NCBI RefSeq assembly: GCF_018139485.1
Contig: NZ_JAGSNF010000024.1
Location: 1-64,000, forward strand
Length of the DNA: 64,000 nucleotides
Reading direction: 5' to 3'
Source: Phycicoccus avicenniae
Lineage (GTDB): Bacteria > Actinomycetota > Actinomycetes > Actinomycetales > Dermatophilaceae
The position numbers and the translations under genes were made by a program. Shown here one piece after another: positions 44,262 through 50,656 of this stretch (the stretch's first letter is position 1; every line of letters begins with the position of its first letter). The notes beneath the pieces were generated by a model, which saw nothing but the letters and a program-made list of their open reading frames with translations, was not told where the DNA came from and did not search any database.

Positions 44262-44681
44262 GTGAGCCCCGAGCAGACGTCCGCACCCGGCGGCACGCCG
44301 GCCGAGCGCCTCGCCGCGATCGTCGCGGCGGACGACGTCCACATCGCCCCGACCCGTCCCGCGGGCGGACCTCGTGGGGGTGTGCCGGGGACGCCGACGT
44401 GGATCTGGTCGGTCCTCGTCGACGACGAGGTCCTCGTCCGTCCGTACCGGGGCGAGGCCTCGTCCTGGTACGCCTCCGCGGTCGAGACCGGTCGCGGGGT
44501 CGTCGTGTCCGGGGAGGAGACCATCGAGGTCGTGCTCACACCCGCGGACGAGACCGTGCTCGACGCCGTCGACCGGGCGTACTCCGACACCTACGCGGGC
44601 AGCCCCTACCTGCCGCCCATGCTCGAGCCCGGACCCCGGGCGTGCACGATGCGCGTGAGCGCGGTCGGCGACGACGCGTGA
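44262..44681 (+). CDS. DUF2255 family protein
   Basis: 139 residues from GTG 44262 with AGGAGGAG upstream. Matches the small DUF2255 fold (DDVHIAPTRP, PTWIWSVLVDDEVLVRPYRGEASSWYASAV, a flavin-reductase-like split-barrel look). Overlaps the next gene by GTGA and is divergent from the XRE regulator. Possibly a nucleotide- or F420-binding deazaflavin-type protein; no reaction assigned. Confidence 0.82.
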   Translation: MSPEQTSAPGGTPAERLAAIVAADDVHIAPTRPAGGPRGGVPGTPTWIWSVLVDDEVLVRPYRGEASSWYASAVETGRGVVVSGEETIEVVLTPADETVLDAVDRAYSDTYAGSPYLPPMLEPGPRACTMRVSAVGDDA

Positions 44682-45061
44682 GCGCCCCGTCCCCGGGACC
44701 CGTGACGGTCCGGCTGACGACCGCCGACCACGTCGTCGACGTCGTGCTCGAGGACTCCGCCGCGACGCGGGCCCTCGTCGACCTGCTGCCCGTCGACCTC
44801 GACGTGCGGGACTTCCACGGCATCGAGAAGGTGGCCGACCTGCCACGGCGCCTTCCGACCGACGACGCGCCGGCGGGGTACCAGGCGGCCGCCGGCGACC
44901 TCACGTACTACGCCCCGTGGGGCAACCTCGCCCTCTTCCACCGCCCGTTCGAGCACGCGTCGGGGCTCGTGCCGCTCGGTCGGGTCGTCACCGACCACGC
45001 CGTCCTGGGTGACCTCGAGGGTCCGGCCCGGCTGGTGCTCGTCGAGACGCCGGGATCCTGA
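44678..45061 (+). CDS. Cyclophilin-like fold protein
   Basis: 127 residues. VTVRLTTADHVVDVVLEDSAATRALVDLLP, YQAAAGDLTYYAPWGNLALFHRPF and LVPLGRVV match the cyclophilin-like family of small bacterial proteins, which lacks proven isomerase activity. Co-transcribed with the DUF2255 gene (GTGA overlap) and probably under the same XRE control. Confidence 0.82.
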   Translation: MSAPSPGPVTVRLTTADHVVDVVLEDSAATRALVDLLPVDLDVRDFHGIEKVADLPRRLPTDDAPAGYQAAAGDLTYYAPWGNLALFHRPFEHASGLVPLGRVVTDHAVLGDLEGPARLVLVETPGS

Positions 45062-45076
45062 CCGGGAACACCCGAC

Positions 45077-45092
45077 ACACCACATGTTGTGT
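45077..45092. promoter_or_regulatory. NrdR box 1
   Basis: ACACCACATGTTGTGT matches 12 of 16 positions of the NrdR consensus as I recall it (ACACWATATATWGTGT), keeping ACAC and GTGT at the ends. It starts 31 bases before the second box. Confidence 0.65.
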
Positions 45093-45107
45093 CTTACACG
45101 GATGTGG

Positions 45108-45123
45108 TTCGTGGATATAGTGC
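45108..45123. promoter_or_regulatory. NrdR box 2 overlapping the -10 of the RNR promoter
   Basis: TTCGTGGATATAGTGC; the right half ATATAGTG fits the NrdR consensus, the left half is weak. TATAGT (45116-45121) is also a good -10, with TTACAC (45094-45099) 16 bases upstream as -35. Boxes 15 bp apart match the usual NrdR spacing. Confidence 0.55.
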
Positions 45124-45130
45124 TCACAGC

Positions 45131-45340
45131 AGCTGGTTCGGCGGCTCATCCAGAGCCGTCGTCGCAAGAGGGAAGCCGGTGTGAGTCCGGCACTGCCCCG
45201 CAGCGGTGAGTGGGAACGACCTCCGTCTCCTGGATCGACAGGAAGCACTGGGACCACCGATCACGGTCCCGGGAAGCGACGGACACTAGGCCGGAGCGTG
45301 AGCTCCACCGCCCACGAGTCCGAAGACCTGCCAGCGCCCG
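45131..45340 (+). promoter_or_regulatory. Adenosylcobalamin (B12) riboswitch
   Basis: The leader contains the conserved cobalamin aptamer elements in order: GAGGGAAGCCGGTGTGAGTC, CCGGCACTGCCCCGCAGC, GGTGAGTGGGAACGA, CACTGGG, GGGAAGC, AGGCCGGAGC and GCCCACGAGTCCGAAGACCTGCC-type end (split here only for length). It sits between the NrdR promoter and the RNR genes, 180 bases before nrdB. By the Streptomyces precedent, B12 binding should switch the class I RNR off while a B12-dependent class II enzyme, encoded elsewhere, is active. Confidence 0.93.
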
Positions 45341-45354
45341 CCCGCGAGGGCGGG
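45337..45354 (+). terminator. Hairpin at the 3' edge of the riboswitch (expression platform candidate)
   Basis: CCCGCCC-GCGA-GGGCGGG, seven G-C pairs with a tetraloop, starting where the aptamer ends. No U-tract follows, so it may act by termination or by masking sequence. The remaining leader to 45519 shows no ORF of note. Confidence 0.5.
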
Positions 45355-45519
45355 GTCCGCGACCTCGAGGGAAGGTCAGGGGATCGAGCAGCGCCTGCCC
45401 GTCGGGGTCCACCCGTCGGTGGCCGAGTCGTCTCCCGTCCCCTCGTCGAGGTCGCGGTCCGCACGGACCGCACATCCGAGCGGGCGGCGAGGGCCGGCCC
45501 GCCGACGAAGGGCACACAC

Positions 45520-46518
45520 ATGATCGACACGTCGGGTCTGCCGATCCGCACCGGGAAGTCCGCCTACGTCTTCGACTACCCCGTGGCCGAGGACCTCGCG
45601 AAGAAGCAGCGCAGCATCTTCTGGACCGCCGAGGAGATCCCGGTCGAGAACGACGCGCAGGACTTCCTCGTGAGCATGACCCCCGCCGAGCAGTCGGCCG
45701 TGAGGACGACCCTGAAGCTGTTCACCATCTACGAGCTCATCCTCGGCGGGGAGGTGTGGGGGGACCGCCTCTTCCACGCCTTCCCGCGCCCCGAGGTGCA
45801 GATGATGACGAACGCCTTCTCGTTCGCCGAGCTCAACATGCACGCCCCGTTCTACGCCAAGCTCAACAAGACGCTCATGATCGACACCGAGGAGTTCTAC
45901 GAGTCGTACAAGAACGACCCGGTCCTCGCCGAGCGCATCGAGTTCGTCTGGGACGCGGTCGCCGACGAGGACCTGCTGTACGCCCTCAGCGTCTTCACCC
46001 TCATGGAGAACTGCGTCCTGTACTCGAGCTTCGCCTTCCTCAAGCACTTCCAGTCCGGCGGCAAGAACCTGCTCCAGAACGTCGTGAGCGGGATCAACTT
46101 CTCCGCCCGCGACGAGAACCTGCACGCGACCGGTGGGGCCTGGCTGTTCAGAACGGCGCTCGAGGAGTACCGACGCACGGTCGACGCCGTCACGTTCGAG
46201 GCCGAGCGCGACGACCTCGTCCGCCGGGTCCGCGCGGCCGCGGAGCACGTCCACGCGCACGAGGTACGCATCGTCGAGATGCTCTTCGCCGACGGGCCGA
46301 TCCCGGGCATCGAGCGGGCCGACCTCGAGACGTTCGTCCGGTCCCGGGTGGACCTGACGCTGGCGACCATGGACATGGAGCCGCTCTTCGAGATCGGTGA
46401 CAACCCGATCGCCGACTGGTTCTACAGCGGCGTCAACGGCACCCAGTTCCACGACTTCTTCCAGGTCACCGGCAACGAGTACAACCGCAGCGTCGGCGAG
46501 AAGGAGTTCGTGTTCTGA
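45520..46518 (+). CDS. nrdB: Class I ribonucleotide reductase beta (radical) subunit
   Basis: 332 residues from ATG 45520 (GAAGGG upstream). Holds the dimetal site that generates the radical for alpha. Candidate ligands: Asp in VENDAQDF, Glu and His in FAELNMHAPFY, Glu in LMENCVLY, Glu and His in SARDENLH. The Tyr four residues after the first His is the likely radical Tyr. The Glu-to-His spacing is ExxxH rather than the common ExxH. C-terminal FQVTGNEYNRS should carry the radical-transfer Tyr. Stop overlaps alpha start by one base. Confidence 0.93.
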   Translation: MIDTSGLPIRTGKSAYVFDYPVAEDLAKKQRSIFWTAEEIPVENDAQDFLVSMTPAEQSAVRTTLKLFTIYELILGGEVWGDRLFHAFPRPEVQMMTNAFSFAELNMHAPFYAKLNKTLMIDTEEFYESYKNDPVLAERIEFVWDAVADEDLLYALSVFTLMENCVLYSSFAFLKHFQSGGKNLLQNVVSGINFSARDENLHATGGAWLFRTALEEYRRTVDAVTFEAERDDLVRRVRAAAEHVHAHEVRIVEMLFADGPIPGIERADLETFVRSRVDLTLATMDMEPLFEIGDNPIADWFYSGVNGTQFHDFFQVTGNEYNRSVGEKEFVF

Positions 46519-48227
46519 TGGCCGGCACCGCATGGAAGACGCTCTCCGCCGAGCGCAAGGCCCTCCAGGCGCGGGGCGAGGTGCCCGCCTTCATGACGAC
46601 CGCCGGGTACGCGATGGTCACCGCCAAGTACGTCGTCGGCGGCCAGTCGGTCCGTGAGCGCTACGAGACGATCGCCCGCACCGCCGGGGACCTGGCCGAC
46701 GAGCTCTACGGCCGCGACGACGGCACCTCGTGGACCGGCCACTTCCTCGAGGCGATCTGGAACGGCTGGCTCTCGCCGTCGACGCCGGTCCTGGCCAACC
46801 TCGGGACGGACCGCGGGATGCCCGTCTCGTGCGAGGGGTCGTACGTCGAGGACTCCGTGTGGGGCTTCTACGACACCCTCAAGGAGGCGGCGATCCTGTC
46901 CCAGAACGGGTTCGGCACCTCCGCCTACCTCGGCGACATCCGTCCGCGGGGCGCCCGGTTCAGCGACACCGGCAAGGCCAACGGTGTCGTCCCCGTCTTC
47001 TCGAACTTCGTCGAGATGACGAACCAGATCAGCCAGGGCAGCACCCGGCGCGGGTCGTGGGCGGGGTATCTGCCGGTCGACCACCCGGACTTCTTCGAGC
47101 TCGCCGACCTGGTCTTCCGCGAGCCGGCGAACAAGAACGTCGGGTGGATCTTCACGCAGGCCTTCATCGACCGGATGCTCGCCGGTGACAAGGACGCCCT
47201 CGAGCGCTACCAGCGGGTCCTGAAGATCCGCGTCGTGCTCGGCAAGGGCTACATCTGGAAGGTCGACACCGTCAACGCCGCGCAGACCGAGTCCTACCGG
47301 GCCCACGGCCTGACGAACAAGGCCTCGAACCTCTGCTCGGAGATCACGCTCTTCAGCGACGAGGACCACTCGTACACGTGCGTGCTGTCCTCGCTGAACC
47401 TCTCGACGTACGACGCGTGGAAGGACCGGGACCTCCCGTTCCTCGCCACCGTCTTCCTCGACGCGGTCGCCGAGGCGTTCCTGCGCAGGGCGCGCACGAT
47501 CCGGGGTCTGGAGCGGGCGGTCCGGTACACCGAGAAGGCCCGCAGCCTGGGTCTCGGCGTCATGGGTTACCACGACCTCCTGCAGCAGCGGATGCTCCCG
47601 TTCGCGTCGGACGAGGCGGCGGCGCTCAACGTCGACCTCTTCGAACGGATCAGCCGGGGCGCGGACGCCGCCTCCCAATGGATGGCCGAGCGGACCGAGG
47701 TCCCGCAGTGGTGCGTCGGGCGCCGCAACTCCCACCTCATGGCGGTCGCGCCGACGATGAGCACCGCCGTCGTCGTCGGCGGGACGAGCCAGGGGATCGA
47801 GCCCTACGTCGCGAACGTCTGGAACCAGACGACGTCGGCCGGCGAGATGCCCCGGGCCAACCGCAACCTCGTGCGGCTCATGAAGGAGCGGGACGTCCAC
47901 GACACGGAGCACCTCGACGACATCGTCGACCACGCCGGGTCCGTCCGGCACGTCGACTGGCTCGACGACCACGAGAAGGAGGTCTTCCGCACCGCCTACG
48001 AGATCGACCAGGAGGTGCTGCTGGACCGGGCGTCGGACCGGCAGGTCTTCATCGACCAGTCGCAGTCGCTCAACCTCTTCTTCGAGGCCGACGCGACGCC
48101 GCAGGAGATCAGCCGGGTGCACAAGAAGGCCCTGCTCGACCCCCACCTCAAGAGCCTCTACTACCTGCGCTCGCGCGCCGGTGTCCGGGCGAGCACGCAG
48201 AACCCCACGAAGAACCAGGACAGGTGA
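46518..48227 (+). CDS. nrdA: Class I ribonucleotide reductase alpha (catalytic) subunit lacking the C-terminal redox tail
   Basis: 569 residues, short for an alpha subunit, with no ATP-cone at the N-terminus. Active-site elements are complete: Cys in GMPVSCEGS, NLCSE with the thiyl-radical Cys, the partner Cys in YTCVLSSLNLS, and the Tyr-Tyr pair in LKSLYYLRSR. The chain ends STQNPTKNQDR, without the CxxC tail that re-reduces the active site. A 43-codon ORF five bases downstream encodes such a tail in another frame. Co-transcribed with beta under the B12 riboswitch. Confidence 0.94.
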   Translation: MAGTAWKTLSAERKALQARGEVPAFMTTAGYAMVTAKYVVGGQSVRERYETIARTAGDLADELYGRDDGTSWTGHFLEAIWNGWLSPSTPVLANLGTDRGMPVSCEGSYVEDSVWGFYDTLKEAAILSQNGFGTSAYLGDIRPRGARFSDTGKANGVVPVFSNFVEMTNQISQGSTRRGSWAGYLPVDHPDFFELADLVFREPANKNVGWIFTQAFIDRMLAGDKDALERYQRVLKIRVVLGKGYIWKVDTVNAAQTESYRAHGLTNKASNLCSEITLFSDEDHSYTCVLSSLNLSTYDAWKDRDLPFLATVFLDAVAEAFLRRARTIRGLERAVRYTEKARSLGLGVMGYHDLLQQRMLPFASDEAAALNVDLFERISRGADAASQWMAERTEVPQWCVGRRNSHLMAVAPTMSTAVVVGGTSQGIEPYVANVWNQTTSAGEMPRANRNLVRLMKERDVHDTEHLDDIVDHAGSVRHVDWLDDHEKEVFRTAYEIDQEVLLDRASDRQVFIDQSQSLNLFFEADATPQEISRVHKKALLDPHLKSLYYLRSRAGVRASTQNPTKNQDR

Positions 48228-48232
48228 CGACG

Positions 48233-48364
48233 ATGGACGAGACCACGACGACCGCGACGACGAGCACGGCGATCGACGAGCTCGACTGGGACGGCTGGGA
48301 CCTCAGCCCGGCCGAGGTCTGCTCGATCGAGAACGGCGCCGACTGCACGGCCTGCGAGGGCTGA
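48233..48364 (+). CDS. Small protein resembling the detached C-terminal redox tail of RNR alpha
   Basis: 43 residues: a Thr-rich N-terminus, then LDWDGWDLSPAEVCSIENG and DCTACEG. The Cys-Ser-Ile-Glu-Asn ... Cys-x-x-Cys pattern is that of tails seen at the end of many NrdA proteins (for example forms ending CEACQ). ATG 48233 has AGGTG six bases upstream and lies five bases after the alpha stop, allowing reinitiation. The frame is -1 relative to alpha. No classical slippery heptamer is visible. It could be a real separate peptide, a frameshift product, or the result of a sequence error. Confidence 0.8.
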   Translation: MDETTTTATTSTAIDELDWDGWDLSPAEVCSIENGADCTACEG

Positions 48365-48514
48365 GGCCCGACCCCCGCAGGCCACGTCCGTCGCGACGCG
48401 GGGGTCGGCCGAACGGCCACGGTGCGCCCGACCGCCGGGCGCGGACGGCCGCCGCTCGGGACGATGGGGCGTTTCCTCGGTCCGTGCAGGGGCTGTTCGC
48501 AAAGGTGGGTGGCG

Positions 48515-50656
48515 ATGTCGTCGCTGCGCGCGGCTGTGCTCGTCCTCGGTGTGCTGTGGGCGGCCTTCCCGCTGACCCCGGTCGGTGACGTCCGGGACGG
48601 CTACTACGACGTCCTCGCGGCGATGTGCATCGCGGTCGCCGTCGTCGCGGCCCGTCGGCTGCCGCCGCCGGTGCGGTGCGCGTGGATGCTCGTCGTCCTC
48701 GGCTTCGCCGGCTGGGTCGCGGGCGAGCTCGTCTCCACGGTCGAGCAGCGGGTCCTCGGCCTCGACCTCTTCCCCGCCCCGAGCGACGCCTTCTACCTCG
48801 GCGCGTACGGCCTCCTCGCCGCCGGGCTGCTCCGGCTCGTCCGGGGCCGGCACACCCGTCAGGACCTCACGCCCGTCCTCGACGCGACGATCGTGGCGGT
48901 CGGCTTCGGCATCGTCGTCGGGACCTTCCTCGTCGGCCCCATCGCGGAGGACGCGGGCACCTCGGCGTTGGAGCGCGTCGTCGCCTCGGCCTACCCCGTC
49001 GGGGACGTCCTGCTCATCGGGCTGCTCGTGCGCCTGTGGGCCTCGGTCGGGTCGCGCTCGCCGGCCTTCCGCCTCCTCCTCGTCGCGGTCGTCGCCACGA
49101 CCGCCGCCGACGTCACGTGGAACGTCCTCGCGCTCACCGACCCGCTCGCCGACGACCCCGCGTGGCTCGACATGCTGTGGCTGCTCGCGTACGTCGCGGC
49201 CGCCGCCGCCGTCTGCTCGCGGTCGGCGACCTCGATCGGGGTCGGGACCGTGCAGACCGAGGCGGCCGCCTCGCCGCACCGTCGCCTCGTGGCGCTCGGG
49301 GCCGGCCTCGTCCTGCCGGCCGGGGCACTGGCGTTCAGCGGGCTCCTGGAGCTGGACGTCCCGTGGCGGCTCGTGTCCGTCGGGTCGGTCGTCGTGTCCG
49401 TGCTCGTCGTCGTGCGGATGGCCCTGCTGCTGCGCACCGTCGAGGAGCAGGCCGTCCAGCTCGCCGCGCTCGCCCGCAGCGACGGGCTCACCGGCGCGCC
49501 GAACCGTCGCACGTGGGACCACGAGCTGGGCCGGGCGTTCCAGGCGGCCGAGGAGTCCGGGGGGCCGCTCGCGATCGGGCTCGTCGACCTCGACCACTTC
49601 AAGCGCTACAACGACGAGCACGGTCACCAGGCCGGCGACCTCCTCCTGCGGGAGGCGGTGGCCGCGTGGTCGGACCTGCTCCGCCCGGGAGAGCTGCTCG
49701 CCCGCTACGGCGGGGAGGAGTTCGGGCTGCTCATGCCGGGGTCGACGCCCGAGCAGGCGGCCCAGCGGCTGCAGGTCATGCAGCGGCTCACGCCGCGTGG
49801 GCAGCGGTTCTCGGCGGGGGTCGCGGCCTGGACCCCGTCCGCCGAGCCGGCGGCGGTCGTCGAGCAGGCCGACCGGGCGCTGTACAGCGCCAAGCACGCC
49901 GGGCGGGGGCGCACGCGCATCGCGAACGTCACCCACGACGCTCCCGAGACGCCCGCGGTGCAGGTGGCGCTCCAGCCGATCGTCGACGTCGCGTCGGGTG
50001 CGGTCGTCGGGCACGAGGCGCTCAGCCGGTTCGTCGACGGCGACCCGGAGCGGGTGTTCGCCGAGGCGCACCGCGCGGGCTACGGCCCGGTCCTCGAGGC
50101 GGCGGCCGTCGCCGAGGCACTGGCCCACCGCCCCGCCGAGGGGATCCTGTCCGTCAACGTGAGCGTCGGGGCGCTCGTGAGCGAGGAGATGCGCTGCGTC
50201 CTCGACGCCGACCTCACCGGCGTCATGGTCGAGATCACCGAGCAGACCGACACCGACGCCTGGGACGAGGTCGCGGTCGTCGTCGCCTCGTGCCGCACCC
50301 GGGGTGCGGTCGTGGCGGTCGACGACTGGGGGCGTGGGTACTCCAACGTCGAACGGATCATGCGGCTGCGACCCGAGGTCGTCAAGCTCGACCGCAGCCT
50401 CGTCGCCGACCTGTCCGACCCCGACCGGCTCAGTGCGCTGCGCACGCTCGGCGAGTGGGCCCGCAGCATGGGCGCCCGGGTCTGCGCCGAGGGGGTCGAG
50501 TCGGCCGACCAGTGGGCGGCGCTGCGTGCCATCGGCATCGAGCTCGCGCAGGGCTACCTCTTCGGACGCCCCGCCCTCGCCTCGGACGAGGGCGCCGACG
50601 GTGTCGTCGGCGGCGGGCGTGCCGACACCGCCGTGTCGCCGGTCGGCTCGCTCTGA
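48515..50656 (+). CDS. Membrane GGDEF-EAL protein (cyclic-di-GMP synthase/phosphodiesterase)
   Basis: 713 residues from ATG 48515 (AAGGTGG upstream). About nine membrane segments to residue 310, then a GGDEF domain with an active-type GGEEF (near 398-402) and FSAGVA, then an EAL domain with HEALSR (near 500), VEITEQ, VDDWGRGYSN, VKLDRSLV and AEGVES. Both catalytic sets look intact, so the protein could make and break c-di-GMP. The 150 bases before it hold no recognised element. Confidence 0.92.
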   Translation: MSSLRAAVLVLGVLWAAFPLTPVGDVRDGYYDVLAAMCIAVAVVAARRLPPPVRCAWMLVVLGFAGWVAGELVSTVEQRVLGLDLFPAPSDAFYLGAYGLLAAGLLRLVRGRHTRQDLTPVLDATIVAVGFGIVVGTFLVGPIAEDAGTSALERVVASAYPVGDVLLIGLLVRLWASVGSRSPAFRLLLVAVVATTAADVTWNVLALTDPLADDPAWLDMLWLLAYVAAAAAVCSRSATSIGVGTVQTEAAASPHRRLVALGAGLVLPAGALAFSGLLELDVPWRLVSVGSVVVSVLVVVRMALLLRTVEEQAVQLAALARSDGLTGAPNRRTWDHELGRAFQAAEESGGPLAIGLVDLDHFKRYNDEHGHQAGDLLLREAVAAWSDLLRPGELLARYGGEEFGLLMPGSTPEQAAQRLQVMQRLTPRGQRFSAGVAAWTPSAEPAAVVEQADRALYSAKHAGRGRTRIANVTHDAPETPAVQVALQPIVDVASGAVVGHEALSRFVDGDPERVFAEAHRAGYGPVLEAAAVAEALAHRPAEGILSVNVSVGALVSEEMRCVLDADLTGVMVEITEQTDTDAWDEVAVVVASCRTRGAVVAVDDWGRGYSNVERIMRLRPEVVKLDRSLVADLSDPDRLSALRTLGEWARSMGARVCAEGVESADQWAALRAIGIELAQGYLFGRPALASDEGADGVVGGGRADTAVSPVGSL

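Follow-up and report, generated by a model that had tools for sequence, protein, structure and literature searches.

A minimal class I ribonucleotide reductase with its redox tail apparently encoded as a separate mini-protein

A ribonucleotide reductase (RNR) operon of the actinobacterium Phycicoccus avicenniae most probably encodes a minimal class I enzyme whose redox tail acts in trans as a separate mini-protein, as judged from sequence. The operon lies on contig NZ_JAGSNF010000024.1 (positions 1 to 64,000 of the forward strand; these 64,000 nucleotides are called the window here), and its genes stand in the order beta, alpha and a small open reading frame (ORF), referred to as the mini-ORF. 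In class I RNR, thioredoxin or glutaredoxin supplies electrons that reach the active-site disulfide through a cysteine pair at the C-terminus of alpha (PMC5704485). Because this alpha is without the motif and a selected, co-encoded mini-protein bears it, action in trans is the simplest reading. The features of the locus are as follows.

45132..45335, + strand: cobalamin riboswitch (RF00174), operon leader; cmscan score 77.6 bits, gathering threshold 31.5
45520..46518, + strand: nrdB-like beta, class Id-like (Tyr/Glu pairing), with Glu-x3-His in the metal-ligand helix; Pfam PF00268 at 1.7e-42, alignments to PDB chains 9dws, 6cwo and 8dq4 and to relatives
46518..48227, + strand: minimal class I alpha without ATP-cone and without C-terminal CxxC; PF02867 at 8.4e-76
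48225..48235, + strand: junction, with alpha stop TGA at 48225-48227, a 5-base gap, ATG at 48233-48235, and AGGTGA overlapping the stop; read from the sequence
48233..48364, + strand: putative redox-tail mini-protein of 43 amino acids (aa), with an acidic/Trp leader (IDELDWDGWD) followed by CSIENGADCTACEG; from the sequence, its counterparts and purifying selection

Alpha, beta and the mini-ORF

The alpha gene, whose start overlaps the beta stop by one base, encodes 569 aa from ATG to TGA and ends in LYYLRSRAGVRASTQNPTKNQDR. A first-pass annotation of this DNA had claimed that alpha stops without a CxxC tail yet keeps a full active site, and both claims are borne out. Only four cysteines are present (105, 273, 288 and 399), and none lies past residue 399. 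Cys105, Cys273, Cys288, Glu275, Tyr548 and Tyr549 are invariant across 42 aligned alphas, giving the cysteine triad, the catalytic Glu and the C-terminal Tyr pair of a complete class I active site. We take the roles of these six residues from E. coli, and Cys105-Cys288 is presumably the active-site disulfide by homology to the E. coli pair. A ferritin-like beta (PF00268, as listed) is encoded with alpha, again as in class I. What departs from class I is the two-cysteine motif, which is found on the separate mini-protein rather than at the alpha C-terminus. Such a motif is usual but not universal, CXXC having been counted at the alpha C-terminus in 1737 of 2022 class I sequences (PMC9531940). 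The nearest curated family of alpha is TIGR02510 (NCBIfam NrdE-prime), with 576.4 bits, below its cut-off of 602.25.

No ATP-cone was matched in alpha by Pfam, as expected of class Id, and Glu and Tyr of beta align with Glu and Tyr of 6cwo, which we take to be a class Id structure. The nearest structures of alpha by sequence are 6dqw and 6dqx, both titled class Id alphas, and they are also the best structural matches of the predicted fold of an orthologue (locus L032). Tyr/Glu pairing in beta marks class Id (PMC8463856). With class Id (6dqw, 6dqx, 6cwo; PMC8463856) the enzyme shares a minimal alpha without ATP-cone and this pairing, but its alpha is without C-terminal CxxC and the Glu and His ligands of its beta stand one residue further apart. 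The best PDB alignments of beta are to 9dws, 6cwo and 8dq4. Glu-x3-His (AELNMHAPFY) occurs in 29 of 31 aligned betas, compared with Glu-x2-His in 6cwo and 9dws, and amounts to a one-residue insertion in the metal-ligand helix, adjoining the conserved Tyr; the two betas without it are those of L071, from Thermus, and the fragment L116. The Mn2(IV,III) cofactor that also characterises class Id aside, sequence and predicted fold point to a minimal, class Id-like class I RNR.

The mini-ORF (48233-48364) was also as first claimed: it starts with an ATG five bases past the alpha stop, runs in the -1 frame to a TGA at 48362-48364, and ends in a CxxC motif. Its product is MDETTTTATTSTAIDELDWDGWDLSPAEVCSIENGADCTACEG, containing three cysteines in 43 aa. 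A ribosome site of its own had been claimed as well, and a Shine-Dalgarno-like AGGTGA does sit 5 nt upstream of the ATG. A GTG overlapping the alpha stop (GTGA) is an alternative start, making a 46-aa form possible. In the relatives' loci compared, a Shine-Dalgarno-like stretch also precedes the mini-ORF start, most clearly in phages (GGAG).

The window contains 830 stop-to-stop frames that are 20 aa or longer. Just one of them, the mini-ORF, has an ending of the form C-x-[ILM]-x(3-7)-CxxC-x(1-3); residue-shuffled frames give a chance expectation of 0.005 per window. The ratio of nonsynonymous to synonymous polymorphism (pN/pS) was calculated from 91 pairs among 14 bacterial copies over the last 24 codons, aligned without gaps, a stretch in which the window copy carries a two-residue insert. 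It is 0.343 in the mini-ORF frame and 1.13 and 2.07 in the other two frames. By this measure the mini-ORF is under purifying selection.

Across the split group the mini-protein is 28-52 aa long. Two parts of it stay constant: an acidic stretch that includes Trp or Phe (WDDW, FDF) and, with small departures, C-x-(I/L)-E-N-G-x-x-CxxCEG; variant endings occur in Lentzea and L099 (CRMEEGCVTCEG and CKLDNPECVACEG, respectively). Thus, beyond the lost tail, it bears a third cysteine and an acidic aromatic leader. By eye, leaders such as LEFDF and LDWSNW look like beta ends such as EEFTF. Searches with the mini-protein gave one chance-level match in PHROG (0.18) and one in PDB (0.66). Four phage records (Peregrin, Grayson, NiceHouse and Trina) list the mini-ORF product as a hypothetical protein. 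Record NC_041887.1 of Weasels2 has no annotation for the mini-ORF, which lies there between the alpha and metallopeptidase genes (L066:4193-4285).

Recurrence and ancestry of the split

The alpha C-terminus was scored in 172 loci, several of which are copies of one genome. A fused CxxC was found in 126 and was absent in 37; three alphas run to the locus end (L079, a class II enzyme, L148 and L163), and six loci gave no alpha C-terminal match, so that 163 C-termini were readable. All 37 alphas without fused CxxC have a CxxC-ending ORF directly downstream, the combination for which a search of close genomes had been proposed at first pass. Judged in the same way, only two fused loci out of 126 have such an ORF (L140 and L141, near-copies of each other with an unrelated sequence), where 5 of the 126 have less than 250 nt of downstream sequence.

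The mini-ORF lies at a distance of -4 to +92 nt from alpha and is found in each of the three possible frames relative to it (0, 1 and 2). Because the same stop and separate ORF recur in bacterial genomes and phages with differing gaps and frames, the split is not a sequencing error, and the extra or missing base that the first-pass annotation had named as a possible refutation is excluded. An intein, intron or endonuclease at the break is rejected too: the gaps leave no room for one, and Rfam scans of window positions 44500-49500 and of 18 loci found no intron family.

The distinct bacterial sources are the Phycicoccus avicenniae genome, Segeticoccus, 12 genomes of the Nocardioides genus group and Lentzea. 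The distinct viral sources are Rhodococcus phages Weasels2, Peregrin, Grayson, NiceHouse and Trina and the uncultured viral contigs L099 and L168. The group is small, consisting of soil bacteria and Rhodococcus phages. The split gene is rare. In the Nocardioides genus group it was seen in 12 of 215 genomes, in the family of Phycicoccus avicenniae in 2 of 186 (Phycicoccus avicenniae and Segeticoccus), in the family of Lentzea in 1 of 249 sampled, and across the phylum in 1 of 396 sampled (Phycicoccus avicenniae).

Among phages, a tblastn search with the mini-protein (E up to 10) hit four records, all of Rhodococcus phages, and tails were read in 9 of the 1313 records with an alpha match (5 split, 4 fused). 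The larger viral scan covered the best 80 of 122 loci. The pattern ENG..C..CEG occurs in five loci of viral contigs (L093-L097), of which L094 and L095 are of the NiceHouse and Trina type. The occurrence in L097 was judged to be chance.

A maximum-likelihood tree was built from 62 alphas, hand-chosen from the loci, with tails trimmed where the YY motif was found (59 of 62). One branch, with support of 100/98, separates the 23 split rows from the 39 fused rows. Every fused alpha therefore falls outside the split clade, and the fused close relative named beforehand as another possible refutation was not found. Similarity scores agree, as the best fused alpha reaches 599 bits, compared with at least 675 for split alphas with complete sequence. 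Within the split clade, Trina, NiceHouse, L168 and L099 group together on one branch, and the bacterial genes are nested among phage genes. Since the bacterial rows are sister to the Weasels2 group inside this clade, they look phage-derived. We infer that the split arose in phages and then moved to Nocardioides, Intrasporangiaceae and Lentzea.

The position of the break was read from the aligned ends. The closest fused alphas, of phages T2S2 and PSA11, end in ..YYVRTQAGVQASKGECIACEG and ..YYMRTKAGVQASKGECEACSG, and the nearest fused relatives generally finish in ..ASKGECxACEG. Split alphas finish in ..YYxRSxAG(V/I)QASK plus a few variable residues, or ..RAGAKGSNGK.. in the Weasels2 group. Because ..VQASKGECIACEG and ..VQASKGECEACSG of the fused relatives fall exactly at the ..QASK.. 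end of the split alphas, the break lies just before the redox motif.

The last 12-14 residues of the mini-protein match fused alpha tails. The motif is a genuine alpha tail motif, since conventional actinobacterial class I alphas have it as a fused ending (ACSLENPESCEACQ in several of them and ACSIENGEDCEACQ in L017); all 28 loci of this comparison end in CxxC. The mini-protein ending is nearer to these conventional tails than to ECxACEG of the sister enzymes: in L010 and L017, the tail CS(L/I)EN..(S/D)CEACQ is nearly the same, but is fused to a larger alpha via a longer linker. Two viral fused tails also have an extra upstream cysteine, like the three-cysteine mini-protein ending (L129:4786-4830, FCGLSKEEGCNVCEG; L128:4807-4854, ACPLIKSDDEVCIPCQG).

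Trans action and its alternatives

We propose the following course. Alpha would have lost its own C-terminal ECxACEG tail, with the redox relay now made as a separate mini-protein by the next gene. The mini-protein would bind alpha via its acidic aromatic leader, and its CxxC would be brought to the active-site disulfide (Cys105-Cys288), reducing it after each turnover. It would itself be re-reduced by thioredoxin or a glutaredoxin-like protein, and the enzyme may be kept for low-B12 conditions through the cobalamin riboswitch. The ribosome-site-like stretch, the purifying selection and a split point immediately ahead of ECxACEG are each consistent with a tail that functions in trans.

An AlphaFold2 model of the L032 alpha and mini-protein, read through the intervening TAG as one chain, has 463 of 611 residues at 90 or above. 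It is disordered from residue 559 on, and the mini-protein part has a predicted local distance difference test score below 50. A disordered part on a well-folded alpha is as expected of a swinging tail.

Several points weigh against trans action. The argument for it is drawn from homology, position and selection. The mini-protein motif has an extra cysteine and a spacer other than that of ECxACEG, so it may derive from a different type of alpha and not from the tail of its own alpha, the segment being too short to decide. Searches of Pfam and NCBIfam up to E = 1 gave no match for the mini-protein. Finally, tail docking was looked for in the joined-chain L032 fold and only disorder was seen, which supports no binding mode and excludes none.

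Alternatively, the mini-protein could be a cysteine-bearing helper with another job, such as metal delivery to beta or service as a general small redoxin, while alpha is reduced directly by a glutaredoxin-type protein. Three cysteines and acidic residues could bind metal, the Glu-x3-His spacing in the betas of the group is unusual, and in a viral alpha (L096) a fused glutaredoxin domain is followed by the same ending, ENGDECxACEG. We nevertheless regard a helper as unlikely, because the mini-protein ends like fused alpha tails, its gene is present wherever the alpha tail is gone rather than alongside fused tails (37 of 37 loci, compared with the two unrelated cases above), and sister enzymes with the same beta type retain a fused CxxC.

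A fused alpha-tail protein could instead be produced in the cell by ribosomal frameshifting or stop read-through, as the gaps are short in several loci and some are 4-nt overlaps. However, a mini-ORF that stands in relative frame 0, 1 or 2 at -4 to +92 nt makes programmed frameshifting improbable. The residues past QASK vary among members and a Shine-Dalgarno-like stretch precedes the mini-protein start, so that a fused product by either route is very improbable. It is scarcely credible that the mini-ORF is a decaying leftover or the break an assembly error, even though the mini-ORF is unannotated in Weasels2 and absent from family libraries. The selection on it and the single split clade argue otherwise, and the assembly part is excluded because the arrangement turns up again in independent bacterial genomes as well as in phage records that were deposited as complete.

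If the mini-protein does act in trans, it could be a free, detachable carrier cycling between thioredoxin and alpha, its leader docking perhaps at the beta-tail site. Its dose and redox state might then set the turnover of the only class I RNR of the cell, and an invention of actinobacterial phages might have turned into chromosomal equipment. We offer this extension tentatively, leaning slightly against it.

Known systems and B12 context

The first-pass annotation knew of no split of this kind. For class I this stands, as among the papers listed by literature searches none was recognisable as describing a class I alpha whose redox tail has a gene of its own, subscription papers and RNR databases being outside this scope. 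For RNR in general it does not, since class II precedents exist. The closest precedent is the class II pair NrdJa/NrdJb of Pseudomonas aeruginosa, in which NrdJb mediates dithiol exchange and is needed in vivo, and which was termed in 2015 the only split RNR from a non-viral organism (PMC4520616). In both cases the catalytic chain and the chain with reducing cysteines are separate genes of one operon; that the second chain supplies reducing cysteines to alpha here too is suggested by its motif and position. The pair differs in being class II and B12-dependent, whereas alpha here is class I with a beta partner. NrdJb is also a large, folded, cysteine-rich domain of 229 residues (PMC5704485, PMC9669993), whereas the mini-protein has 43 aa and three cysteines and is predicted to be disordered in the L032 orthologue.

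In Thermus phage phiYS40, nrdJ is in two consecutive ORFs with a 12-nt gap (PMC3653736), similarly with no intervening element named, but this enzyme is class II. Splits of phage nrdA (Aeromonas phage Aeh1, Listeria A511/P100, Campylobacter CP220) were ascribed to inteins or their traces in the same 2013 survey, which also gives an nrdD break of unknown cause (PMC3653736). These likewise yield a class I alpha from two reading frames in phages. The present split differs in having no intervening element, in breaking just before the redox motif, and in forming one clade that is also on bacterial chromosomes. The portion of a 2022 survey drawn on here describes class I tails as disordered alpha C-termini and names only the class II split (PMC9669993). 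A 2026 Rhodococcus phage paper, as far as drawn on, reports that the Peregrin cluster contains many small ORFs without a known function, and mentions RNR once, for another cluster (PMC13313380).

Whether the class I tail needs tethering, which subunit it serves and whether its supply is limiting are hard to probe while it is part of alpha. With the tail apparently separated by nature, the reductive half-cycle would be open to titration, labelling and mutation on its own. It would give a class I case, beside class II NrdJb, of an RNR redox part as its own subunit, and illustrates that conserved proteins of about 30-50 residues sit unnoticed or uncharacterised beside well-known enzymes.

A different arrangement is seen in L096:550-2586 (IMGVR_UViG_3300025120_013509), where an RNR alpha continues in frame into a glutaredoxin domain (PF00462, 5.9e-11), after which comes the tail IENGDECAACEG; this looks like an alpha-glutaredoxin-tail fusion. 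The start of contig L093 is the end of a similar protein, glutaredoxin-like by eye, with a Pfam value of 0.087 only.

Of the 15 bacterial genomes with the split enzyme, 14 have just one further RNR alpha gene, and Lentzea carries a conventional alpha as well, making three. The second gene is class II NrdJ in all four genomes tested of the 15 (Phycicoccus avicenniae, Segeticoccus and two Nocardioides). The 14 genomes thus probably have no class I RNR besides the split enzyme. In Phycicoccus avicenniae, NrdJ is a separate gene of 983 aa ending in its own C-terminal cysteines, MCMTC..CYVCEGC, which makes it unlikely that the mini-protein is the tail of NrdJ.

Scans of 10 bacterial relatives' loci placed a cobalamin riboswitch on the + strand ahead of beta in 9, all but Lentzea, and scans of 8 phage loci found none. 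The third gene of Streptomyces nrdABS is a regulator. Streptomyces nrdABS is under cobalamin riboswitch control (Borovok 2006, cited in PMC4991794), and by analogy the split enzyme likely takes over when B12 is short. In both systems a class I operon is preceded by a B12 riboswitch and the genome encodes class II NrdJ as well, but no mini-protein is mentioned for nrdABS in the part of that source drawn on (PMC4991794).

In three loci a second cobalamin riboswitch lies on the opposite strand just upstream of the RNR one (L034:1367-1549, L035:1361-1544 and L037:1361-1543), so that a divergent gene may also be under B12 control. In the window, at 45070-45120 upstream of the riboswitch, are the stretches ACACACCACATGTTGTGT and ACACGGATGTGG, which we take to resemble NrdR boxes.

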